Shown one piece after another: positions 44,020 through 64,000 of a stretch of DNA of 64,000 bases. This DNA is from Leptogranulimonas caecicola (GTDB lineage: Bacteria; Actinomycetota; Coriobacteriia; Coriobacteriales; Atopobiaceae): assembly GCF_023168405.1 (NCBI RefSeq), contig NZ_AP025285.1, forward strand, positions 124,001 through 188,000. The letters run 5' to 3'. A model generated the notes under the pieces. It saw nothing but the letters and a program-made list of their open reading frames with translations. It ran no database searches and was not told the DNA's origin. Both the position numbers and the translations under genes were made by a program. Each line of letters begins with the position of its first letter. Position 1 is the stretch's first letter.

Positions 44020-44949
44020 CTAAGCGGTGGTCATCATACAGGTGAGCTGGCCTGTGAAAGTCGCGGCGCAGCCTTTGGGAACCAAGAAGTGGTCGCCCAC
44101 CTTCACGGGCCTGCCGTTGACCTGGCCGGACCCGCGTACGACGCTCACGAGCTCATAGGCGTCTTCGCAAAGGGTGAAGGAGCCCTCGTCCACTGCCAGC
44201 TTCTCGATCTTGAAAGAGGGGCAGTCGATGTAGCAGGTGCGCTCCCAGCCATCCTTGGCCTCCACTGCGTCGGTGTGGCGGGAGGCGTTGAGATCCGGCC
44301 CGTACTCCACTGACTCCAGCGCCTCCTTCAGCTGAAGGGGGCGCCTGTTGCCTTGGGCATCGGTGCGGTCGTAGTCGTAGAAGCGATAGGTCACATTGGT
44401 GGCCTGCTGCACCTCGTAGACGATGACGTTTTTGCCGCAGGCGTGCAGGGTCCCTGCCGGCACGTAGACAAAGTCGTCCTTTCGCACGCAGAGGCGGCGC
44501 AAAAGCTCATCCCACTGGCCGCTCTCGATACGGTGCCGCATGTCGCGCTCGTCTGCGGCGTTGTGGCCAAAGACGATAGAGGACCCAGGCTGGGCTTCCA
44601 GGAAATACCAGGCCTCGTTTTTGCCATAGGGAAACCCCTTGGCGCGCGCGACGCTGTCTGTGGGGTGCACCTGGATGGAAAGGTCCTGCTCGGGGCAGAG
44701 CATGGAGACGATGAGAGGGAAGGGGCGATCGGTGTCCCCAAACCATTCCGGATGCTCTTTCCACAGCTCGCCTAAGGTGGCTCCCTGGTAAGGGCCATCT
44801 GAAACGGCCGTGGAGCCGTCAGGTTGGTCGGCGAAGGCCCAGGCTTGGCCCACCTGGTCGCTGGGCCATTCGTAGCCGTAGTAATCCTTGATGGTGGTGC
44901 CTCCCCAGACGGTGTCGTGGGGGATCGGGGTGAAAAAGAGGGGGTCCAT
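44020..44949 (-). CDS. manA: Mannose-6-phosphate isomerase, class I-like
   Basis: 309 residues from ATG 44949 (AGGAG upstream; the longer frame has no site). Zinc-dependent cupin isomerase of the short bacterial type: V-W-G-G-T near 15, I-Q-V-H-P-T near 92 and G-K-N-E-A-W-Y near 108 (metal ligands), Y-V-P-A-G-T-L-H near 166. It interconverts aldose and ketose 6-phosphates. Its place in the PTS operon suggests it handles the incoming sugar phosphate, together with the epimerase. A second, different isomerase of this family is at 49131. Confidence 0.86.
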   Translation of the reverse strand: MDPLFFTPIPHDTVWGGTTIKDYYGYEWPSDQVGQAWAFADQPDGSTAVSDGPYQGATLGELWKEHPEWFGDTDRPFPLIVSMLCPEQDLSIQVHPTDSVARAKGFPYGKNEAWYFLEAQPGSSIVFGHNAADERDMRHRIESGQWDELLRRLCVRKDDFVYVPAGTLHACGKNVIVYEVQQATNVTYRFYDYDRTDAQGNRRPLQLKEALESVEYGPDLNASRHTDAVEAKDGWERTCYIDCPSFKIEKLAVDEGSFTLCEDAYELVSVVRGSGQVNGRPVKVGDHFLVPKGCAATFTGQLTCMMTTA

Positions 44950-44981
44950 GGAAACTCCTAGGGGCGCAGGGAGACAAAAAG

Positions 44982-45014
44982 GCGCCGGCAGCATTGGAGG
45001 TTGGCTGCCGGCGC
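44982..45014 (-). terminator. Attenuator-like hairpin between EIID and manA
   Basis: Perfect 11-bp stem GCGCCGGCAGC (44982-44992) with 45004-45014. Read on the minus strand it ends in TTTTT, like a terminator, so expression of manA and the epimerase may be lower than that of the PTS genes. Confidence 0.8.
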
Positions 45015-45091: not shown

Positions 45092-45937
45092 TTAGAGGAA
45101 CCCGATGACGCAGCAGATGATGACAGCTACAACGAGGACCAGAAGGACCTTCATGGCGCTCCACTGCTTCTTGTTGAGCATCCACCAGGTCACCAGGGTG
45201 ACGATGAGGGCCAACAGGCAAGGGAAGACGCCGTCCAGGGTGTCCTGGAGGGGGCCCATCTCGGTGCCATAGGGGATCTGGACGATGGTGGAGACCGCCA
45301 CCATCGAGGCTGCCAGCGTGCCTACCACGATGATGCCCAGCACGTTGATGGCGTCCATGATGCGCATGGAGGTCTCGCCCACCAGGGTGTCGATGGAGCT
45401 CAAGCCCAGCTTGTAGCCATAGCGGAACAAGCCGTAGGAGATGGCCAGGCCGCAGATGAGCCAGGTGACGATGTAGAAGATCGGGCCGGCCACAGAGCCG
45501 TTGGCTGCCAGGCTCATGCCGATGGAGAGCAGGGTGGGGACGAAGATGCCCTGGATGATGGAGTCGCCGATGCCTGCCAGCGGTCCCATGAGGGCGGTCT
45601 TAACCGAGGTGGGCATCTCCTCGGGGATGGGATCGCCCAAAGCGATGCCCTCCTCCATGGACGCCACGATGCCGTTGATGATGGTGCCCACCTGAGGCTC
45701 GGTGTTGTAGAACTGGGAGTGGCGGAGCAGCAGGCGCTTCTTGCCCTCGGGATCGTCTTTGTAGAACTTGTCGGCGAAATCGCAGTAGGACCAGGCAAAG
45801 CCGTGGGACTCCAGTTTCTCGTAGGAGCTGGAGGAGAACCAACCTACCTGCCAGCGGTACCAAAGCATGTTGAGATCATGCTTGTTCATGCCGATCTTGC
45901 CATCTTCGCGCTTGATTACGGGTTCGTTATTAGACAT
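45092..45937 (-). CDS. PTS system, mannose-family EIID
   Basis: 281 residues. The cytoplasmic start (D-L-N-M-L-W-Y-R-W-Q-V-G-W, H-G-F-A-W-S-Y) is followed by the EIID signatures (N-T-E-P-Q-V-G-T-I-I-N-G, then M-G-P-L-A-G-I-G-D-S-I near 117) and about five hydrophobic segments towards the end. With EIIC it forms the sugar channel in the membrane. Good RBS (GAGAGGAGAG). The fourth PTS gene in the order A-B-C-D, 20 bp after EIIC. Confidence 0.92.
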   Translation of the reverse strand: MSNNEPVIKREDGKIGMNKHDLNMLWYRWQVGWFSSSSYEKLESHGFAWSYCDFADKFYKDDPEGKKRLLLRHSQFYNTEPQVGTIINGIVASMEEGIALGDPIPEEMPTSVKTALMGPLAGIGDSIIQGIFVPTLLSIGMSLAANGSVAGPIFYIVTWLICGLAISYGLFRYGYKLGLSSIDTLVGETSMRIMDAINVLGIIVVGTLAASMVAVSTIVQIPYGTEMGPLQDTLDGVFPCLLALIVTLVTWWMLNKKQWSAMKVLLVLVVAVIICCVIGFL

Positions 45938-45957
45938 TGTCTCTCTCCTCTCTCAGC

Positions 45958-46783
45958 TTAAAAAAGGTCGGGGTCTTCGTAGATCGCGTTCTCGCTGCTG
46001 GTGGCAGCAGGAGCGGCGGCAGCGGCCTTGCCGGTGGCTAGGAAGTAGATGTAGGCCACGGTGGCGGCGATGAAGACCACGGGGATGGTGCCCAGGCCTG
46101 CGAAGGCGAAGAGGGCGAAGCCAAGGAAGAAGAAGACCAGCTGGATCTTCTCTTTCACCACGATGTTCATGAGCATGCCGATGCCCAGTGCGGGAAGGAT
46201 GCCGCCCAGCACGCTAATGGTGTGGGTGACGATCTCAGGCGCGTTGTTGGCGATGTCGTTCACGACGCCCTCACCGGCGATGATGGCCACAAAGACGGGG
46301 ACGAAGCGCAGCAAGAAGGTGCAGATCTGGGGGATGACCAGGTGCCACAGAGTGACGCCCTTGGTGCTTCCGGCCTGTGCGGCCTCCAGGGCCTTGTTGT
46401 TGAAGACGGAGTAGCCGGCCATACGCAGGTTGTAGAAGACCAGGCCAAAGGTGTTGCCCACCAGCACCGCCAGGGTCACTGCCAGCGCGGGGGTCCTTGG
46501 TGGCGGCCATGGCCAAGCCAATGCCGCCATAGGAGGCATACGTGATCTCAGAGTTGGTGGCGCCACCGGTGGACAGGTTGGCGATGAAGACGGCCTGCAC
46601 CGCCACGCCGCAGAGGATGCCCTGGGTGACGTCGCCAAAGGCGAGGCCCACGATAAGGCCGGCTACCAAGGGGCGGCCAAGGCAGTAGAAGCTGCCGGTG
46701 GTGCCCAGAGGGTTGGCGCACTCGATGGCGCCCAGATAACAGAAGAGACCGCAGATAAACGCCGGGAAAATAAGTCCGCTCAT
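45958..46783 (-). pseudogene. PTS system, mannose-family EIIC, frameshifted
   Basis: Two overlapping frames carry one protein. The first, from ATG 46783 (GGAGGAG upstream), gives the start of an EIIC with membrane segments up to A-M-A-A-T-K-D-P near residue 97. The second continues with A-L-A-V-T-L-A-V-L-V-G-N-T and runs to 45958 as a normal EIIC end (about 270 residues in all). The switch falls in a run of five G at 46489-46493 on the + strand; removing one G joins the frames. All neighbours are intact, so this is either a sequencing error in a homopolymer or a recent inactivation. If real, the transporter would be non-functional. Confidence 0.8.
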
Positions 46784-46801
46784 AACAGTTCTCCTCCTCC
46801 T

Positions 46802-47296
46802 TTACAAAGACTCGTACTTGCTCTTCACCTGGGACCAGGTGTGCACAGAATCGTCGGGGATCATCTGGAATTGCAGGTCGATGCCTTGATTTGCCAGATA
46901 GTCGAAGCAGGCGACGTCTTCGTCGGTGATGCAGATGGCGTTGCCTAGGTTTTTGGTGCCCGGGCGTGTGCCAGAGAGGTTGCCTACGTTGAGCATGGGG
47001 CCAAAGTCGCCGCCTGCCTTCTTGAGGTTGGCAAACTCCTCCACCGAGTCGGAGATAATAAAGAAGTTTTTCTTGGAAGCTTTGGCCTTCTCGCAGGCCT
47101 CCACGCCCTGGTCGACGGTGTAAATGCCGATCTTCAGGTGCCCGGCTGCCGCCTTGAGCACCTTCTTGCGCAGGTCGTCAGCGGCAACTTTGTCGCTGAT
47201 CACCAGGATGGCGTCGCAGGACTTCTGGGTGGCCCAGCGGGTCATGGTCTGGCCATGGATCACACGATCGTCGATGCGTGCGAACGAAATGGTCAT
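46802..47296 (-). CDS. PTS system, mannose-family EIIB
   Basis: 164 residues. The phosphoryl-accepting histidine is His14 in R-I-D-D-R-V-I-H-G-Q. The rest fits the EIIB sorbose-type fold (D-A-I-L-V-I-S-D-K-V-A, L-K-A-A near 48, N-V-G-N-L-S-G near 121). It receives phosphate from EIIA and passes it to the sugar in the EIIC-EIID channel. RBS GGAGAGGTG. Second gene of the operon, 45 bp after EIIA. Confidence 0.93.
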   Translation of the reverse strand: MTISFARIDDRVIHGQTMTRWATQKSCDAILVISDKVAADDLRKKVLKAAAGHLKIGIYTVDQGVEACEKAKASKKNFFIISDSVEEFANLKKAGGDFGPMLNVGNLSGTRPGTKNLGNAICITDEDVACFDYLANQGIDLQFQMIPDDSVHTWSQVKSKYESL

Positions 47297-47341
47297 ACAC
47301 CTCTCCTCTCTTTTAGGGAAACTTGTGGCAAGACGACGCGG

Positions 47342-47770
47342 CTAGAAGAGATCCTCCTCTTCCTCTGGGCCGTCTTCCTGGGGCAGTTCCGCACCACAGA
47401 CGCCGCTCGCCCCCGCTGAGACGGCAGTCTGAACAACGGCATCGATGTCATCGGTGGCAGAGGCCATGACTCCTGCCTCGATGAGCATGGGAAGGTTGAG
47501 GCCGCACACCAGGCGCAGCCGGGAAGGGTCTTCAAGCAGGCGGGCGTAGACCTCGTTATAGGGGGTGCCGCCCAACAGATCGGCCATCACCAAGATGGGG
47601 CCCTGGCCGTCAAGGGCGGCCAGACGCTCATCCAAGCGCACCCGAAAATCCTCTACGCCATCGTTGGTGAGGCTGAGGGCGCTCACGTTCGGCGCGTCGG
47701 CAAAGAGCATCTTGTAGGCGTCGAGCACGCCCTCGCAGAGCTTTCCGTGGGACACGAGCAGGATGTTCAT
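47342..47770 (-). CDS. PTS system, mannose-family EIIA
   Basis: 142 residues from ATG 47770 (AGGAGCCCCT upstream, so preferred over the longer frame). His8 in L-V-S-H-G-K-L-C-E-G is the phosphoryl site; D-L-L-G-G-T-P-Y-N-E near 68 is the second signature. The last residues are strongly acidic (E-E-E-E-D-L-F). First gene of the operon. The leader contains an inverted GCCCTTAAGA word at 47863-47872. Confidence 0.92.
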   Translation of the reverse strand: MNILLVSHGKLCEGVLDAYKMLFADAPNVSALSLTNDGVEDFRVRLDERLAALDGQGPILVMADLLGGTPYNEVYARLLEDPSRLRLVCGLNLPMLIEAGVMASATDDIDAVVQTAVSAGASGVCGAELPQEDGPEEEEDLF

Positions 47771-48278
47771 AGGGGCTCCTTTAGGTGTAAGCAAAATTGA
47801 TCGAAGGGAGGCGCCCGAAGGCGCCGGATGCCAAGGGAGGGTGCGCTTTTGTGAAGCGCCGTTCTTAAGGGCCCAGAGCGCGCAAGGGAAGAGGGGCGAC
47901 GCTGGGCTTTCGAGGGATCCTGGCGGCCAGGTCTCGAAGGATAGGGAAATAAGTAAAGGCTGCTCAGAAACTTGTAAGTCAATATGTAAGCTTTAAGCCT
48001 TACATAACGCCTGTGCAATCCCAATAGTAGGGGGAGATATCCAAAGAATCAAGAGACATATCCACACAATATCCGTGAACGGTAGAAAATATGAGCTGAC
48101 AAAAAAGACAAATAGCCTAGACAAAAAGCTTGTTATACTCCTGCTACCGAGAAGGCCCGGCCCCCGGATGTTGTGGGCTTATCGGCACAAGGGCAATTCA
48201 GGTTGCCTTTAGAGTTGCAAGTTGTACAAGACGCACCCCTTAGTATTCTTCGAGTGTTTCTATTTAAGGAGCTTATCC
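47771..48278. promoter_or_regulatory. Shared promoter gap of the PTS operon and deoC
   Basis: 508 bp between divergent genes. On the minus strand TTGACT (near 47980) is a candidate -35 box for the PTS operon. CTTGTAAG (47971-47978), ATGTAAG (47984-47990) and CTTACATAAC (47999-48008) surround it, matching words near regulator 1. TCTTAAGGGC (47863-47872) matches the word near regulator 2. TATACT at 48134-48139 could be the -10 box for deoC. A TTATCGGCA copy is at 48179. No gene is seen. Confidence 0.5.
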
Positions 48279-56342: not shown

Positions 56343-56385
56343 AGCAGGTGCGGCTGGAAGGGATCCGGCTGCACCTGCTATTTTT
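56343..56385 (+). terminator. Terminator after ftsH
   Basis: AGCAGGTGC/GCACCTGCT stem (56343-56351 with 56371-56379) with an inner GC-rich loop, then ATTTTTA. Also near the end of the convergent HAD gene. Confidence 0.85.
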
Positions 56386-56411: not shown

Positions 56412-57086
56412 TTAGAGGGAGAGTTGGTCGATCACGAGGGGGATCTCGTCGAGGGTATCCACCATGTGGTGCGCTCCTTTTTGAGAAAAGCAAAAGCGCG
56501 TCTCGCGCCGGGCAATCACATAATAACGAGCGCATCTTGCAGCTTCGATCCCGGTATTGGAGTCTTCCACAGCTACGCAACGCTGCGGGTTTACACCCAA
56601 GAGCCGCGCGGCTTTGAGGTACACATCAGGAGCAGGTTTGGAGTGAGCCACTTCGCTGCCGCTCACCACGGCCGCAAACTGGTCACGTACGCCGCAGCTA
56701 CAAAGAGCAACCTCTATCTCTGCCGGTGAGGAGCACGAAGCCACGGCACAGGGAATGCCTCGGTCGTGCAAGCCCTCAAGACAGCGGTGCAGTCCGGCCA
56801 TGGCTAGCTCGCCGAGCCTTCCATCAAGGGCGGCGAAAGCCGGCTCTACTGCCTCCTCAACGCCCAGGTCTGCCCAAGAGGGGTCGGGCTGGGGTACTTG
56901 TGCAAACCATCGCTCCAGGTGCTCGCGATATACCGGGGCAGAACATCCAACGATGTCGCTCACCTCGTCCCAGCTCAGAGAGACACCGTGTTGCCCAAAG
57001 AAATCCACGAGGATGCGGCAGTAGGCCGCCTCGGTGTCGACGATAACCCCATCCATGTCGAACACGACCGCCTCTACGGTGCCCAT
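56412..57086 (-). CDS. HAD-superfamily phosphatase (beta-phosphoglucomutase-like)
   Basis: 224 residues from ATG 57086 (AGGAGG upstream). The start M-G-T-V-E-A-V-V-F-D-M-D-G-V-I-V-D is the HAD motif I with two catalytic Asp. V-A-S-C-S-S near 118 is motif II, K-P-A-P-D near 152 gives the lysine, V-E-D-S-N-T-G near 176 is the acidic motif. Likely removes phosphate from, or isomerises, a sugar phosphate. Divergent from the operon at 57175, and the gap between them contains a word shared with the SIS/PTS promoter, so it is probably in the same regulon. Confidence 0.86.
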   Translation of the reverse strand: MGTVEAVVFDMDGVIVDTEAAYCRILVDFFGQHGVSLSWDEVSDIVGCSAPVYREHLERWFAQVPQPDPSWADLGVEEAVEPAFAALDGRLGELAMAGLHRCLEGLHDRGIPCAVASCSSPAEIEVALCSCGVRDQFAAVVSGSEVAHSKPAPDVYLKAARLLGVNPQRCVAVEDSNTGIEAARCARYYVIARRETRFCFSQKGAHHMVDTLDEIPLVIDQLSL

Positions 57087-57104
57087 AATTCCTCCTGTTT
57101 GGAA

Positions 57105-57139
57105 AATTGGTATCAAGAAGTACGTATATTGTATACAAT
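57105..57139. promoter_or_regulatory. Operator candidates between HAD and GntR operons
   Basis: AATTGGTATCAA at 57105-57116 is repeated exactly at 59263-59274. ATTGTATACAAT at 57128-57139 is a perfect 12-bp palindrome, the size expected for a GntR/HutC dimer site. Confidence 0.65.
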
Positions 57140-57174
57140 TACAGAAAGAAGGGACACAATCAAGGGAGATCTCC

Positions 57175-57687
57175 ATGGGGCTGTTTGGGCACAAGGATCC
57201 GCAAAAGGTCTTCAACGGGCCTGAATTCACGGTGACGTCGGTCTTGTTTGAGCCGCCGCGCCTCTCGATGCTCCCTTGGGTGGTAGAGGATGCTTCCCGG
57301 GGGCTCTGGGCTGTGCGTTTTCCTGGCTGTGAGCCGGCGGTGTTTTGTGATGCGGATCTTCTGGCCTGCCAAATCGTCGAGCGCGCGCCTGAGCCTGAAG
57401 GCAACAATCGCGACCTAGCTGCTCGCATCATGGCCAATCCTGCCGCAGTGTCTCGAGGTAATGCTGCAGAGAAGGGGTGCTGCCTAGGGCTCTCTGTGGC
57501 GCTGGCGGTGCGCTCTGGCGCAGAGGGCGTTGCCCGCTTGGAGATTCCCGTTATAACAAGGGAGGTCTCCAGAGACTCCCTAGCGTTCAAGAGTCTAAGT
57601 GGTTATGCTGAAGAATTAAAGGGTTCCATGGACGCAGTGATTGCAAGAGGGGCCGCGAAGTCCGGGGGAGCGGAGCGCAAGGAATGA
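57175..57687 (+). CDS. Unknown protein in GntR operon
   Basis: 170 residues from ATG 57175 (GGGAG upstream; the longer frame extends over the operator). It begins M-G-L-F-G-H-K-D-P, then a soluble beta-rich domain (W-V-V-E-D-A-S-R-G-L-W-A-V-R-F), without membrane segments. I do not recognise a family. Its stop overlaps the start of the next gene by 4 bp (ATGA), so translation is coupled to the first GntR. Confidence 0.65.
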   Translation: MGLFGHKDPQKVFNGPEFTVTSVLFEPPRLSMLPWVVEDASRGLWAVRFPGCEPAVFCDADLLACQIVERAPEPEGNNRDLAARIMANPAAVSRGNAAEKGCCLGLSVALAVRSGAEGVARLEIPVITREVSRDSLAFKSLSGYAEELKGSMDAVIARGAAKSGGAERKE

Positions 57688-58451
57688 GCACAGGGTTAAC
57701 CGTACCCGCCAAGGATCGTGCCTCTGAGGGCATTCGTTGGCTCATCGCCTCGCGTGGGCTTGGCCCAGGCGATCGCCTCCCGCCCGAGCGTGAACTCTGC
57801 GAGCTCGTGGGAGTATCGCGCACAGCTCTTAGGGGCGCCATTGCCGATCTTGTGGCTGGCAATGTGCTTGAGAGCCGCCATGGGTCGGGCACCTATGTGG
57901 CAGATCCACGGGTGCTTATGGTTTTTCAAGAAACCTACAACTATGGCGCTGCAGCGCGCGACGTGGGCATGAGGCCGGGCAGCGTGTTGGTGGTCTCTGG
58001 GGTGGAGGAAGCTCCCTCTGATGTGGCTCATCGCCTCGCGATACACCCTGGTGACCCGGTGTTTTTTTTCAAGCGGCTGAGGACGGCAGATGGCAGGCCC
58101 TGTTCCATAGAGACTGGCTGGATAGATCGGGAGCGCTTCTCGGGTATTGAGAATCACGATTACGCCCAGGAAAGTCTCTACGAGGTACTTGAGCGCGACT
58201 ACGGCGTTCGTATCTCCCATGGCGAAGAGCGTATCTCGGTGACGCGGGTTCGCGAAGACGAGGCCCCTCTTTTAGGGCTTGCTCCTGGCGCCGCCGCCCT
58301 TTTCTTTCTTGCCGTCGAGAAGGACGACGCGGGCCTTCCCGTGGAGTTCAGCCGGCATATCATCCGCGCCGATCGCTATCATTTTGCGAGCAACGACCTG
58401 CCTGAGCATCTCAAGAGAAAGGTGGGTAAAAAGCCGTGGCTTTTCTCGTAA
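57684..58451 (+). CDS. GntR-family regulator with UTRA domain (regulator 3)
   Basis: 255 residues. Winged-helix reader near 15-75 (P-P-E-R-E-L-C-E-L-V-G-V-S-R-T-A-L-R), linker, then UTRA about 88-245 (F-F-F-K-R-L-R, D-A-G-L-P-V-E-F-S). It starts inside the stop of the preceding gene and its own stop lies 16 bp into the next GntR gene, so all three are translated together. Likely senses a sugar phosphate from the SIS/PTS operon downstream. Confidence 0.87.
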   Translation: MSTGLTVPAKDRASEGIRWLIASRGLGPGDRLPPERELCELVGVSRTALRGAIADLVAGNVLESRHGSGTYVADPRVLMVFQETYNYGAAARDVGMRPGSVLVVSGVEEAPSDVAHRLAIHPGDPVFFFKRLRTADGRPCSIETGWIDRERFSGIENHDYAQESLYEVLERDYGVRISHGEERISVTRVREDEAPLLGLAPGAAALFFLAVEKDDAGLPVEFSRHIIRADRYHFASNDLPEHLKRKVGKKPWLFS

Positions 58452-59167
58452 CCCCGGGGGCTCTATCCCGAGAAGAACCCTTCTACCTTAGCATTCGTCG
58501 AATCATTGCCGAACGTATCGAGCGCGGCGACTATCCAGCCGGCGTCGCCTTGCCCTCTGAGAATGAGTTGGCAGATGAGTTTGGCTGCACGCGGCTCACG
58601 GTGCGAAACGCCGTGGGAGAGCTTGTGGATCGCGGCTTTGTGCGCCGCGTCCAAGGCAAAGGAGCCTTTGTGGTGAGCCTTTGGGATGGAGCCGAGGCTA
58701 CCGGCATGGGGTTCCGAGAAATGGTTAGAGTGCACGATGCGGAGCCCTCGGTGCGCATTCTCTCGCGCTCACGACGCCTTGCAGGTCCCCTTTTTGCAGA
58801 CCTTTTTGGGGTAGATCCCGAGGACGAGGTGTATGGCGTGCGCCGGCTCAACAGCGTTAACGGCGTTCCGGTTTCTATTGAGAGCGCCCTTATTCCGCTT
58901 GAGCTCTTTCCTGCTATCGAAGTTGTGGATGTGGCTGTCTTTAGCCTTTACGAGACCTATGCGATGTACGGGCATGAAGTGGTAGGCACCCAAGAGGTCC
59001 TTGGTTTGACCGAGCTTTCAGCACGGGATGCGGGGCTTCTCCGCGTGCGAGCAGGGGATCCCGCCATGACCCTAGACTGTGTGAGCTATGACAGCGATGG
59101 TCGATCCGTCGAGTATGTGAGAGCCCTTAACCTCGGTGATCGTGGGGGTTACGTCTACACCTATTGA
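58436..59167 (+). CDS. GntR-family regulator with UTRA domain (regulator 4)
   Basis: 243 residues from GTG 58436 (AAAGGTGGG upstream), overlapping the previous gene by 16 bp. Reader helix near 35-65 (L-P-S-E-N-E-L-A-D-E-F-G-C-T-R-L-T-V-R), UTRA about 85-240 (V-Y-G-V-R-R-L-N-S-V-N-G-V-P-V-S-I-E-S). It is only weakly like regulator 3, so the two may read different sites or form an activator/repressor pair. Followed by about 200 bp with the AATTGGTATCAA word. Confidence 0.87.
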   Translation: MAFLVTPGALSREEPFYLSIRRIIAERIERGDYPAGVALPSENELADEFGCTRLTVRNAVGELVDRGFVRRVQGKGAFVVSLWDGAEATGMGFREMVRVHDAEPSVRILSRSRRLAGPLFADLFGVDPEDEVYGVRRLNSVNGVPVSIESALIPLELFPAIEVVDVAVFSLYETYAMYGHEVVGTQEVLGLTELSARDAGLLRVRAGDPAMTLDCVSYDSDGRSVEYVRALNLGDRGGYVYTY

Positions 59168-59262
59168 TCGTGTTCGCGACCATGCATTGAGGATGGGACA
59201 CGGCAATGCTACCGTTTGTCCCTTAATAAACTACCGTTCGCCGGTATCCCCTGGTTATCATG

Positions 59263-59274
59263 AATTGGTATCAA
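59263..59274 (+). promoter_or_regulatory. Operator candidate of the SIS/PTS operon
   Basis: AATTGGTATCAA, identical to 57105-57116. Related GGTTATCA and GGTATCC lie just upstream (59242-59260). It precedes a low-GC stretch with TATAAA (59305-59310), a possible -10 box. Confidence 0.6.
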
Positions 59275-59365
59275 AAGAGTGTTAGCTTGTTTATAGCAAA
59301 TGGTTATAAAAAGTCCCCACTTGTACTCTTCCCATCGTCAAACATCGATCGTAAGGAAGGCTGCG

Positions 59366-60502
59366 GTGAAGTCGAAGATCCCCACGATGCTCGATTACGC
59401 CCGTGCGGCACAAGATCGTATGGTCGAGAACCTCGATCGCTCGGCAGAGCTCACCTGTTGGTTGGTAGATTCCTATGCAGCGACGCTCAGGCGTCCCGGA
59501 GGACCGGCGATTCGCATCATCGCCTCTGGGTCCTCTCGCCACGCAGCTGATTGCGCCCGCGATTTCATGGCGCAAACCCTTCAAGAACAAGTATCTGTGG
59601 TGACCCCGGAGCGCTTCATGGCCTTCGAGCACGATTACCCGGCCAACGCATTCAACGTGGTCATTTCTCAAAGTGGCTACTCCACCAACGTGATAGCGGC
59701 TCTCGACTTTTTGCGCGATCGCGGCAAGCCTTCTGTTGTGCTTACGGCAAACCCCCAATCGCCCGCTGCAGAGCATGCCGATGTGGCCGTGGACTACGGT
59801 TGCGGGCTCGAGGCGGTGGACTTTGTCACACAGGGCATGCTCACTTTGGTCGAATTCCTCATGTTCTTCGCGCTCTACGGAGCAGAGGAGGCGGGAACCC
59901 TCGGGCAGCAAGGCCTTGTGGAGGGGCTTGCTGCCGTCGAGGACGCCGTGGCTGCCCATCGTGCCTGCTTGCCCGTGGCCGACGCCTTTGTCGAGCGGCA
60001 CATAGGCGAGCTTTCTCGCCGCTCTCCCGCTCTCATCGTGGGCAACGGCCCTGCCTGGGGCGTTGCCGAGGAGGCCTCCCTCAAGTTCCAAGAGACGCTC
60101 AAGATAAGCGCCGCCCCCTTCGAGGGCGAGGAGTTCCTGCATGGCCCCGAGATGCAAGTGGCCCCCGGCCACCTCGTGTTTATCCAAGACGACCCCGTTG
60201 GCTCACCTCGCCTTGCCCGCTGCGCTCAGGTCATGGCTCAGGTAACGCCCTCGGCATGGCTGCTTACAGCGCATCCCCAGGGCAAGGACTTTGAGGTGCC
60301 CTTGCCTTCCTGCGCAAACCCCCTCTGCACTGCCATTCCCAATCTCGCATTTTTCCAGGTGGTGGCAGCGACGGTGGCCGAGGCGACAAAGTCCTGGGAC
60401 GTCCATCCGTTTTTAGCTGCCCATGAGGGCGAGCTTGGTAGCAAGGCCGCCGGCTACGACGAAGCCCAAGCCAAGCTGGAGCAGCGCGCATCCACTTTGT
60501 AG
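59366..60502 (+). CDS. SIS-domain sugar isomerase/deglycase (first copy, GfrE-like?)
   Basis: 378 residues from GTG 59366, chosen for AAGGAAGG upstream and because earlier codons fall in promoter DNA. Two SIS domains: I-I-A-S-G-S-S-R-H-A-A near 52-62 and V-I-S-Q-S-G-Y-S near 100; second half with I-V-G-N-G-P-A-W-G near 220 and E-E-F-L-H-G-P-E near 252 (the GlmS-isomerase-like E-x-x-H-G signature). Proteins of this group include AgaS, GlmS isomerase, FrlB and GfrE. Next to a second SIS gene and a mannose PTS, this fits a deglycase of an Amadori compound. Exact substrate is inference. Confidence 0.78.
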   Translation: MKSKIPTMLDYARAAQDRMVENLDRSAELTCWLVDSYAATLRRPGGPAIRIIASGSSRHAADCARDFMAQTLQEQVSVVTPERFMAFEHDYPANAFNVVISQSGYSTNVIAALDFLRDRGKPSVVLTANPQSPAAEHADVAVDYGCGLEAVDFVTQGMLTLVEFLMFFALYGAEEAGTLGQQGLVEGLAAVEDAVAAHRACLPVADAFVERHIGELSRRSPALIVGNGPAWGVAEEASLKFQETLKISAAPFEGEEFLHGPEMQVAPGHLVFIQDDPVGSPRLARCAQVMAQVTPSAWLLTAHPQGKDFEVPLPSCANPLCTAIPNLAFFQVVAATVAEATKSWDVHPFLAAHEGELGSKAAGYDEAQAKLEQRASTL

Positions 60503-60592
60503 ACACGGCGCGTACCTTAAAGCGCCTGTGCCAAGGGTGGCCGCCGGTACCCGACCGCCCCATACCATTCGAGAGAGAGTGAGAGGAATATC

Positions 60593-61654
60593 GTGAAAGA
60601 GACTGAGAAGGTTGAGATCATGCACTTCGACCAGGAGGGCTACCTCGCCGATGGAGAGGCCCTTCATGAGACCGGCAAGCTCATGGCTGCTATGGCAGAT
60701 TCCGTGGCCGACGAGGGCTACGACGCTATCTTCCTCATGGGCGTAGGCGGTACATGGGATGAACTCATGCAGCTCGAATACATGATGAACAAGTACGGCG
60801 ACAAGGATCTCGAGGTCTATCTCATCCATGCCGCCGAATGGCTCGTGGCAGGGCACAAGCGCATGACCGAGCGCTCTGTGGTGCTCACTGCTTCTGAGAG
60901 TGGCACTACGCCCGAGATCCTCGAGGCCGTGGCGAAGCTCAAGGAGATGGGCGTGCGCGTGGTGGCCATGACCAAGCCCGACGGCCCCATTGGCAAGGCG
61001 GTGGGTGCGAAAAACTGCGTGGCCATGGCGTCCAACCACGGTGCTGGCGGGTGCGAGGGCGGTTATTATCTCGCTGATTGTTTTGGTCTTAAGCTCCTTG
61101 AGCGCCGCGGGTGCTTCCCGGAGTACGAGCGCTTCATCGAGCAGTGTCGCGGGATCTGGGCCGATCTCATCGATATTCGCAAGTCGTTCGAGCCCGTTGC
61201 CGAGAAGATCGCGCGCTCCTATGCCCTTGCCCCTTACACCATGTTCGTGGGTTCTGGCGCCCTATGGGGGGAGACCATTCTGTTCGCCATGTGCATTCTC
61301 GAGGAGATGCAGTGGAAGCGCACGCGCTATGTGAGCTCTGCAGACTTCTTCCATGGCACTCTCGAGCTTGTGGAAGAGGGCGTCCCCGTGGTGCTCTTCA
61401 AGGGCGTCGACGAGTATCGCAAGCTCGATGAGCGCGTGGAGGCGTTCCTTAAGAGTGGCCGCACGGGCGACAACGACATCGTTGTCATCGATATCGACGA
61501 GTTTGCGACGCCCTCCATTGACAAGGAGTTCCGCACCATCGTAAGCCCGTGGATTCTCTCATCCCTTGTGACCGATCGCGTGGCTGCCTACTACGAGACC
61601 GTCACCAAGCATAACCTCAACTATCGCCGTTACTACCACCAGTTCGAGTACTAA
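60593..61654 (+). CDS. SIS-domain deglycase, FrlB/GfrF-like
   Basis: 353 residues from GTG 60593. Two SIS domains: F-L-M-G-V-G-G-T near 45 and T-A-S-E-S-G-T-T-P near 100; second half with M-F-V-G-S-G-A-L-W-G near 220 and S-A-D-F-F-H-G-T-L-E near 248 (family F-x-H-G-x-x-E). The closest known layout is fructoselysine-6-phosphate deglycase (FrlB/GfrF), which splits the phosphate into glucose 6-phosphate and lysine. The gene is followed by EIIA, B, C and D. I infer that the pair handle two related glycated amino-acid phosphates. Confidence 0.78.
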   Translation: MKETEKVEIMHFDQEGYLADGEALHETGKLMAAMADSVADEGYDAIFLMGVGGTWDELMQLEYMMNKYGDKDLEVYLIHAAEWLVAGHKRMTERSVVLTASESGTTPEILEAVAKLKEMGVRVVAMTKPDGPIGKAVGAKNCVAMASNHGAGGCEGGYYLADCFGLKLLERRGCFPEYERFIEQCRGIWADLIDIRKSFEPVAEKIARSYALAPYTMFVGSGALWGETILFAMCILEEMQWKRTRYVSSADFFHGTLELVEEGVPVVLFKGVDEYRKLDERVEAFLKSGRTGDNDIVVIDIDEFATPSIDKEFRTIVSPWILSSLVTDRVAAYYETVTKHNLNYRRYYHQFEY

Positions 61655-61706
61655 CACGTAGCCGTGGCCCGCAGGGTGTTGGCCACGGCACAGGGGAGGG
61701 AGACTC

Positions 61707-62123
61707 ATGAGAAGGTTCGTCATCGCATCCCACGCCCACTTCGCCCAGGGGATCGCCGAGGCTTTAGCGTTTCTTGTGGGGGAGCGCGAGGACCTCGCGA
61801 CGGTATGTTTGTTCGTCGATGGCAACGACGACGTAGCAGCTGCGGCGACAGAGGCCGTAGGCGCAGGGGATGACGAGGTCGTGGTGTGCTGCGACATTCT
61901 TGGAGGGTCGGTGTGCAATGAGTTCACCAAGCTCCTTGCAAAAACCCCCAACCTTCATGTGGTGGCCAACATGAGCCTCCCTCTCTTGATCTCCCTGCTC
62001 TTCTCCGATCCCGCCGAACCCATTGAGGAGGTGGTGCGCCAAGCCGTGGCTTCGCCGGATGTGGCGCCTAAATATGTGAACGATCTCGTGGCATCTGAGG
62101 ATGTCGAGGAAGAGGAGTTTTGA
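61707..62123 (+). CDS. PTS system, mannose-family EIIA (glycated amino acid type?)
   Basis: 138 residues. The site A-S-H-A-H-F-A-Q-G holds His7 at the place of the usual S-H-G; the Ala after His is a slight deviation, and a second His lies two places on. C-D-I-L-G-G-S-V-C-N-E near 68 is the second signature. The acidic end (D-V-E-E-E-E-F) resembles the other EIIA at 47342. It starts 52 bp after the second SIS gene and takes phosphate from HPr. Confidence 0.85.
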   Translation: MRRFVIASHAHFAQGIAEALAFLVGEREDLATVCLFVDGNDDVAAAATEAVGAGDDEVVVCCDILGGSVCNEFTKLLAKTPNLHVVANMSLPLLISLLFSDPAEPIEEVVRQAVASPDVAPKYVNDLVASEDVEEEEF

Positions 62124-62188
62124 GACCGGCTTTGAGGTTTGGGCTTGCACATCCATCCGTTCGTCTCTAATTCCTGGGGGTATTAAAA

Positions 62189-62659
62189 ATGATTCTATTG
62201 TTGAGGGTCGATCATCGATTGCTCCATGGGCAAGTCGCTGTTTCGTGGTGCCAGGGACTGGGTGCCAACTGCGTCTTTTGCGTTGGCGACCACGTCGCCA
62301 ACGATCCTGTATGGAAGACTACGCTCAAGTTGGGCAAGCCCGCTGGCTGCAAGTTGGTCATCAAGGATATGGACCATGCCGTCGAAGCCATCAATTCTGG
62401 CGTTACCGATAAGTACCGCATGATCGTCAGCGTGCAAACCATCGCCGAGGCTAAAGAGCTTGCCGATCGCTGCCCTGCAGTGACTAGCATCAACCTGGGC
62501 AACACCAAGGCGAGTCCCACAACCCGGGAGGTCTCTCGCCAGATCTTCCTCGAGCCAGAGGAGGAGGTCATGATCCGCGAACTTCTCGACCGGGGCGTCG
62601 AGGTGGAGATCAGGCCTTTGGCCGATGACCCTAAGGTTGACGCTGCCTCCGTGCTCTAG
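62189..62659 (+). CDS. PTS system, mannose-family EIIB
   Basis: 156 residues. His12 in R-V-D-H-R-L-L-H-G-Q is the phosphoryl site. Sequence fits the EIIB sorbose fold (F-C-V-G-D-H-V-A-N-D, L-K-L-G-K-P-A-G, N-L-G-N-T-K near 110). Paralogue of the EIIB at 46802. No strong ribosome site (GGGGG), so start by homology. Confidence 0.92.
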   Translation: MILLLRVDHRLLHGQVAVSWCQGLGANCVFCVGDHVANDPVWKTTLKLGKPAGCKLVIKDMDHAVEAINSGVTDKYRMIVSVQTIAEAKELADRCPAVTSINLGNTKASPTTREVSRQIFLEPEEEVMIRELLDRGVEVEIRPLADDPKVDAASVL

Positions 62660-62698
62660 GGCTATCCCTTCGAATCCACTCCACAGATTGGCAAAATC

Positions 62699-63469
62699 AT
62701 GATTGTACAAGCTGTACTCGTCGGCCTTATTGGTGCCCTCGGGTGTCTCGATTACCAGCTGGGCACACTTTATATGTTCAGACCCATCGTCATGTGCCCT
62801 CTAGTGGGCCTGGCTCTGGGTGATCTTCAGACCGGCCTCGCCGTGGGCGCCAGCCTCGAGCTGCTCTTCATGGGATCCATCTCCATCGGCGCCTACGTGC
62901 CACCCAACGAGACCATTGGCGGCGTGCTCGCGTGCGCGTTTGCCATCTCGCTTGGCGAGGGCACGGAGGCAGCCATCGCCTTGGCCATGCCTATTGCAGT
63001 GCTCTCGCTGGCCATTGGCAACTTGCTTCAGCCCATTTGGCCCTTCTTTGTCGACAAAGCTGATTCTTTTGCTAAGAAAGGCAATCTTAAAGGCATCTAT
63101 GCTGTGCACTGGGGCATTGGCCTTTGGGGGTGCTTTGAATACTTCTTGCTCTGTGGTGGCGCATTCCTTCTTGGCGTAGACGCTGTTCAGGGCATCCTCG
63201 ACTGGATTCCCAGCTTTATCCTGGACGGCTTTGGCGTCGCGGCAAACCTGCTTCCTGCCATGGGCTTTGCTATGCTCGGCCGTCTTGTGATTACCAAGAA
63301 GCTCGTTCCCTTCTACTTCTTGGGCTTCTTGCTCTGCAGCTACATGGGGGTGCCGGTGCTGGGTGTGGCCATCCTTGCCATCATCATTGGCATTGAGAAG
63401 TTCGATCTTATCAACATGGACATGGGAGCTCAGGTAGCCCTCGAGGGAGATGACGACGATGACTTCTGA
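62699..63469 (+). CDS. PTS system, mannose-family EIIC
   Basis: 256 residues with about eight hydrophobic segments and the family pattern Q-T-G-L-A-V-G-A-S-L-E-L-L-F-M-G near 41-57 and G-A-Y-V-P-P-N-E near 61. The end is acidic (E-G-D-D-D-D-D-F). Unlike its paralogue at 45958 it has an intact frame. It overlaps the EIID start by 11 bp, so the two membrane subunits should be translationally coupled. Confidence 0.93.
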   Translation: MIVQAVLVGLIGALGCLDYQLGTLYMFRPIVMCPLVGLALGDLQTGLAVGASLELLFMGSISIGAYVPPNETIGGVLACAFAISLGEGTEAAIALAMPIAVLSLAIGNLLQPIWPFFVDKADSFAKKGNLKGIYAVHWGIGLWGCFEYFLLCGGAFLLGVDAVQGILDWIPSFILDGFGVAANLLPAMGFAMLGRLVITKKLVPFYFLGFLLCSYMGVPVLGVAILAIIIGIEKFDLINMDMGAQVALEGDDDDDF

Positions 63470-64000
63470 TGTGATGAACCTCAATGTCACCAATCTGGGC
63501 GACCAGGTCGAAGATGAGGATATGATTACCCATAAGGACCTGGTTAAATCGGCCTTGGGTGTGGGGTCTTTGGGCATGGAGTTCTCCTGGACCTACTACA
63601 AGCAGATGAACATTGCCTTTTGCCTCATGCTTGCAAACATGCTCAAGAAGATCTATAGGAACGACCCCGAGGGCTATAAGGCTGCTCTCGAGCGACATCT
63701 AGCCTTCTTTAACATCACTGTGCAGTTCGCTCCCTTCGTGGGTGGTGTGGCCATCTCCATGGAGGAGCGTGTGGCCAGGGGCGAGATCGAGCCAGAGTCG
63801 GTGAACGACGTCAAGGCGGCGCTCATGGGCCCGCTCTCAGGCATCGGTGATTCTATATTCCTTGCCACTATTCGTGTTATCGCTGCCGCTGTGGGTATCG
63901 CTCTTTGCCAAGCGGGCAACCCCTTTGGCCCCATCGCCTTTTTGCTCATCTTTAACATCCCCGGCTTTTGGCTGAGGATCTGGGGTGTCCAGAAAGGTTA
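63459..64000 (+). CDS. PTS system, mannose-family EIID, partial at window end
   Basis: Starts at ATG 63459 inside the EIIC gene and runs off the right edge after 180 residues. The EIID marks are present: M-E-F-S-W-T-Y-Y-K-Q-M-N near 42, F-N-I-T-V-Q-F-A-P-F near 84, and M-G-P-L-S-G-I-G-D-S-I near 123, then a first membrane segment. About one third is missing. Completes an EIIA-B-C-D set for the SIS-domain operon. Confidence 0.9.
   Translation, partial: MTSDVMNLNVTNLGDQVEDEDMITHKDLVKSALGVGSLGMEFSWTYYKQMNIAFCLMLANMLKKIYRNDPEGYKAALERHLAFFNITVQFAPFVGGVAISMEERVARGEIEPESVNDVKAALMGPLSGIGDSIFLATIRVIAAAVGIALCQAGNPFGPIAFLLIFNIPGFWLRIWGVQKG

Follow-up and report, generated by a model that had tools for sequence, protein, structure and literature searches.

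The last 7.6 kb of a 64,000-nucleotide stretch of the Leptogranulimonas caecicola genome (contig NZ_AP025285.1, positions 124,001 to 188,000; the window in what follows) probably carry a catabolic operon for glycated lysine, in which uptake by a mannose-family phosphotransferase system (PTS) would be followed by deglycation. The plus strand encodes, in this order, a PH-like companion protein, two GntR regulators, two SIS proteins (SIS1 and SIS2) and the PTS enzyme II components EIIA, EIIB, EIIC and EIID. The run from the first SIS gene to EIID had been described in the original prediction as a gfr-like locus, and all its genes were recovered at the positions and in the order proposed there. 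Homology and context give good support to the fructoselysine half of the assignment, while its glucoselysine half is plausible. The four EII proteins would import fructoselysine and phosphorylate it at C6, and they probably handle a second sugar-amine as well (a Heyns product such as glucoselysine). SIS2 would then deglycate fructoselysine 6-phosphate, the pathway yielding hexose 6-phosphate and lysine. SIS1 would take an accompanying 2-amino-2-deoxyaldose 6-phosphate, for which glucoselysine 6-phosphate is the most likely candidate, and cleave it to fructose 6-phosphate and lysine. The function of gfrABCD, gfrE and gfrF has been published (PMC12675984, PMC12735817), the Salmonella work being the closest functional report.

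The SIS2 protein and the PTS

SIS2 (60593..61654, plus strand) is plainly of the GfrF/FrlB type, a full-length protein and predicted fructoselysine-6-phosphate deglycase, as judged from PDB matches, NCBIfam profiles and a residue map. Its top PDB match is Salmonella STM4540.S (2a3n; E 1.1e-72, 41% identity), followed by 8glr (E 1.9e-72), an entry whose title names the FrlB deglycase for 6-phosphofructose lysine. The match to FraB is far weaker (E 1e-15 to 1e-16). In the residue map the equivalents of Glu488 (the general base) and His504 (the family histidine) are retained, the C-terminal tail reads RRYY as in FrlB/GfrF, and the tail lysine of GlmS is absent, as it is from FrlB.

EIIA (61707..62123; Pfam 4.2e-16), EIIB (62189..62659; Pfam 2.6e-40), EIIC (62699..63469; Pfam 1e-64) and EIID (63450..64000; Pfam 2.8e-52) follow on the same strand. 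EIID is truncated by the end of the window (183 of 291 residues) and is full length in the genome, where it extends to base 188325 (whole gene, L008 8451-9326). Compared with the Gfr proteins of Citrobacter and Enterococcus faecium, EIIA is 29-30% identical to GfrA (23% to ManX), EIIB 50% to GfrB (26-27% to AgaV, AgaB and ManX), EIIC 41-42% to GfrC (31% to AgaC, 27% to ManY) and EIID 42-44% to GfrD, the Aga/Man values for EIIB, EIIC and EIID spanning 26-34%. All four subunits are thus nearer to GfrABCD (29-50%) than to Aga/Man (23-34%), as the gfr-like reading of the PTS proposed, and in an EIIC tree rooted on ManY the AgaC protein falls outside the gfr-type set. The phosphorylation sites are in place: His9 of EIIA corresponds to His10 of ManX, and the phospho-histidine of EIIB lies within VDHRLLHGQV. 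The genome has one HPr gene. On the minus strand of the window, at 45092-47794, lies another mannose-family PTS with EIIA, B, C and D, adjoined by a ManA-like gene (44020-44994); the naming of the neighbours was read from the sequence.

The SIS1 protein and the weighing of its substrate

SIS1 is a GlmS/GfrE-like enzyme with a single SIS pair, predicted to deglycate a 2-amino-2-deoxyaldose 6-phosphate. Its reading frame opens at 59300 on the plus strand, and the most likely initiation codon is the GTG at 59366, preceded by AAGGAAG, which gives a gene at 59366..60502. The closest PDB sequence match is 2aml (E 1.7e-29), which lies inside the GfrE clade in our tree. The AlphaFold2 (AF2) model of SIS1 (predicted local distance difference test score, pLDDT, 92.4) superimposes on 2aml with Z 45.1 and a root-mean-square deviation (rmsd) of 2.2 over 360 aligned residues. 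Nine catalytic positions were checked against the isomerase half of GlmS: Ser303, Ser347, Gln348, Ser349, Lys485, Glu488, His504 and Lys603 are kept and Thr352 is replaced by Ser. Active-site residues, whose inspection had been recommended with the original prediction, are therefore conserved in both SIS proteins, with the catalytic Glu/His in SIS2 and, but for the Thr352 exchange, the full GlmS set in SIS1. GlmS uses Lys603 on the ketose side of its reaction. This tail lysine is present in SIS1 and in the GfrE proteins of E. faecium and Citrobacter and absent from FrlB/GfrF, which suggests that SIS1 takes an aldosamine 6-phosphate and releases fructose 6-phosphate.

SIS1 itself is not a GlmS, as the N-terminal glutaminase domain is absent and its 378-400 residues match the isomerase part alone; the GlmS of this genome (614-620 residues) is encoded elsewhere. 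Nor is it of the AgaS type, the alternative that had been offered for the SIS pair. E. coli AgaS falls outside the SIS1/GfrE set on a branch of length 8.5, so long that its exact position in the tree is unsure, and the NCBIfam profile search gave no agaS family match for SIS1.

Several observations weigh against the assignment to glycated lysine. SIS1 sits outside the GfrE clade, to whose enterococcal and enterobacterial members it is about 26-33% identical, and trees that force its close kin into that clade are rejected by the approximately unbiased (AU) test (p-AU 3.05e-07), so that SIS1 is no plain GfrE. An AU test of the SIS1 clade placed with 3knz/3g68 versus with GfrE gave p-AU 0.22. The best NCBIfam model for SIS2 is FrlB, with a score far under the cut-off. 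Citrobacter GfrF is likewise under, however, which indicates a strict cut-off rather than contrary evidence. A search of this genome for FrlC found none, and no growth or enzyme test of this species came to light. Finally, a Listeria protein of the GfrE clade that is near-identical to 2aml (L153 5995-7080) adjoins genes for a GH9 protein, a ROK protein and a PTS IIC, a neighbourhood which suggests that this fold class also serves amino sugars. The claim of two gfr-type SIS deglycases therefore holds for SIS2, which is of the GfrF/FrlB type, and fails for SIS1 as far as descent is concerned: by the trees SIS1 is not a GfrE, yet it resembles GfrE in its residues and setting. As SIS1 lies outside the clade, glucoselysine is a putative substrate for it.

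The Listeria neighbourhood would also fit an operon for amino sugars of the glucosamine or galactosamine type, with SIS1 as a deaminase of the glucosamine-6-phosphate kind and SIS2 as an accessory isomerase. The GlmS/NagB-II fold and catalytic residues of SIS1 agree with this, as do the best NCBIfam models of EIIA and EIIC, which are Aga models, all scoring under cut-off. We nevertheless consider it very unlikely, because SIS2 is plainly FrlB/GfrF-type, the PTS subunits resemble Gfr more closely than Aga, E. coli AgaS is distant from SIS1, sister clusters carry FrlC-like genes, and the operon contains no aldolase, deacetylase or AgaI-like gene. The E. coli aga locus (AgaS, AgaBCD) shares with ours a mannose-family PTS and a SIS protein, but these are distant from their counterparts here and its aldolase and deacetylase are missing from our locus.

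It is also improbable that SIS1 works in the cell as a synthase-like or detoxifying enzyme, joining fructose 6-phosphate to an amine, with catabolism left to SIS2 and the PTS. GfrE of E. faecium does run its reaction both ways (PMC12735817), and many related clusters consist of SIS2 and the PTS without SIS1. In F. prausnitzii an operon lacking gfrE has been described (PMC12136445), so a GfrE-clade SIS is not required of every gfr-type operon. However, SIS1 lies behind an operator and directly before SIS2, and proteins at least about 45% identical to it occur only in this setting. Somewhat unlikely, finally, is the possibility that SIS1 represents a new deglycase clade (Coriobacteriia, Erysipelotrichaceae, Lachnospiraceae and lactobacilli) whose substrate is not glucoselysine 6-phosphate, with the PH-like protein as a new partner that senses for, or controls, the GntR pair. 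A conjugative plasmid of a chicken E. faecium (L148 4412-9705) was seen to encode EIIABCD, a GfrF-type SIS, a SIS of the SIS1 clade and a HAD phosphatase. The canonical gfr-like type of that species is on L149, and the plasmid adds a second one.

Operators, regulators and flanking genes

The two regulators, encoded on the plus strand, belong to the GntR/HutC family with a UTRA domain. Regulator 1 (57684..58451; Pfam GntR and UTRA 2.7e-37) is 25% identical to E. coli FrlR and regulator 2 (58436..59167; Pfam GntR and UTRA 3e-26) 26% (E 9e-27). They follow the gene of the 170-residue companion protein (57175..57687, plus strand), the three genes overlapping by 4 and 16 bases. The widest gap, 198 bases, precedes SIS1, and from there to EIID the intergenic distances are 90, 52, 65, 39 and -20 bases. 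A putative operator, TTGGTATCAA, is present in two plus-strand copies, one at 57107..57116, in the interval that separates the companion gene from the divergent HAD gene and upstream of the former, the other in the wide gap upstream of SIS1 (59265..59274). The form TTGGTATCAANA occurs twice in the whole genome (a single contig of 2.0 Mb), both times at this locus. A perfect 12-bp palindrome, ATTGTATACAAT (57128..57139), may be a second regulator site. In the proposed scheme the GntR/UTRA pair would act at TTGGTAT operators before its own operon and before SIS1, and it probably senses the phosphorylated substrate, which would relieve repression.

The operator word recurs ahead of the operons of relatives. 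TGGTATYA has 18 matches in the 6 kb of upstream DNA from 15 relatives (the near-identical KGMB02461 included) versus a density in those loci of 0.13 per kb, an upstream enrichment of about 23-fold, where Markov simulations give 0.4 +/- 0.6. Of the 15 relatives, 12 have it ahead of the first SIS gene and 5 ahead of the companion gene, and the same word is present in Collinsella. Overlapping matches at -66 and -60 in Atopobium fossor together form the palindrome TTGGTATGAAATACCAA. Such conservation of operator and gene order in many species is far beyond chance.

The companion protein has no family match in Pfam or NCBIfam, and a Foldseek search with its AF2 model (pLDDT 88.7) returned nothing below E 0.001. 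A PH-like fold is predicted from its best structural match, the bacterial PH domain 3hsa (Z 8.2, which is at the border of background; rmsd 3.2, 101 aligned residues). Across Atopobiaceae and Collinsella its orthologues are found at the corresponding position, and they head the cluster in most coriobacterial loci.

The HAD gene (56412..57086) lies on the minus strand, divergent from the operon. It encodes a 224-residue HAD-IA sugar phosphatase of the beta-phosphoglucomutase/HxpB-like kind (Pfam Hydrolase/HAD_2 1e-26; NCBIfam HxpB under cut-off) which may serve to remove sugar phosphates. In Bacillota, HAD genes recur adjacent to gfr-type loci, but they are common in general. A shared operator word had been thought to tie the HAD, companion and two GntR genes to the SIS-PTS operon. 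This link stands for the companion gene and the GntR pair, whereas the HAD gene is associated with the locus only by its position and its recurrence near gfr-type loci elsewhere. A terminator hairpin (56343..56379) in the interval from ftsH to the HAD gene marks the block off from ftsH. At the other end, a GC-rich terminator of 14 pairs begins 11 bases 3' of the EIID stop codon, just past the window (L008 9338-9369). Behind it lies an MFS transporter gene (L008 9449-10675), which several Atopobiaceae and Collinsella likewise have after EIID (56-90% identity).

Distribution of the locus and the fate of lysine

The host had been taken for a gut actinobacterium, correctly so, and over 10 kb the locus DNA is 99.7% identical to that of Olsenella sp. 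KGMB02461. The gene order is kept in many species and the block is shared across Atopobiaceae and Collinsella. In C. aerofaciens TSDC17.2-1.1 the order is PH-like, GntR, GntR, SIS1, SIS2, EIIABCD and MFS (79% identity for SIS2, 52% for SIS1), followed by another SIS2 gene and one for a FrlC-like epimerase, neither of which is found here. C. intestinalis DSM 13280 carries a pair of neighbouring SIS2 loci. Wolf 2019 reportedly described fructoselysine loci in C. intestinalis and in C. aerofaciens TSDC17.2-1.1, which we take to be the genes compared here. Coriobacterial clusters vary in content: some lineages have SIS1, others a FrlC-like epimerase, some have the two together and a few lack them both. 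Where present, the gene for this FrlC-like fructoselysine 3-epimerase adjoins SIS2 in the orthologous clusters (30% identity to E. coli FrlC, E 7e-35), and its best NCBIfam model is FrlC, under cut-off.

These epimerases bear on whether the substrate could be another Amadori or Heyns product whose amine is not lysine (fructose-asparagine, for instance, or some glycated amine or peptide), with SIS2 taking the ketosamine and SIS1 the aldosamine form. SIS1 does have a clade of its own, and the fold is common to FraB-type deglycases. We consider this reading very unlikely, since SIS2 matches the lysine deglycases (E 1e-72) much better than FraB, the FrlC-like genes of sister clusters fit fructoselysine, and C. 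intestinalis, of a genus with the same locus, is described as responding to fructoselysine (PMC8195334, citing Wolf 2019). The degradation of dietary glycation products is treated in PMC10255453.

Glycated lysine as the substrate also agrees with the known systems. The gfrABCDEF operons of Salmonella enterica and E. faecium share with our locus a mannose-family EIIABCD, a GlmS-like SIS and an FrlB-like SIS, and enterobacterial and enterococcal gfr operons combine the same two SIS types with the same PTS. They differ in that here the SIS genes come before those of the PTS, two GntR regulators replace the sigma-54 activator of E. faecium, SIS1 is outside the GfrE clade, and PH-like and HAD genes are added. 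E. coli frlABCDR shares an FrlB-family deglycase and a GntR/UTRA regulator, and its FrlC has a FrlC-like counterpart in the sister clusters, but in place of a PTS it has FrlA and FrlD, a permease and a kinase.

No match to lysA (diaminopimelate decarboxylase) was found in the genome by a search that was positive in 13 of 14 control genomes, and two dapA-family matches are below cut-off. The host is thus predicted to be a lysine auxotroph. Among genomes compared, lysA is missing from 6 of 19 that carry the locus and from 6 of 82 that do not (Fisher p 0.009, without tree correction) and several lineages keep both, so this association is only a lead. Lysine 5,6-aminomutase, of the fermentation of lysine to butyrate, gave no match in the genome, a search in which the control was silent too.

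Heated food and infant formula are rich in fructoselysine, and there is dietary interest in knowing which gut bacteria remove it. The locus places a complete, locally regulated system, predicted to act on it, in Atopobiaceae, beyond Collinsella. It points as well to a separate clade of predicted enzymes around SIS1 and to an uncharacterised companion protein that travels with the cluster. Given the missing lysA, deglycation may supply this bacterium with lysine as well as sugar phosphate.

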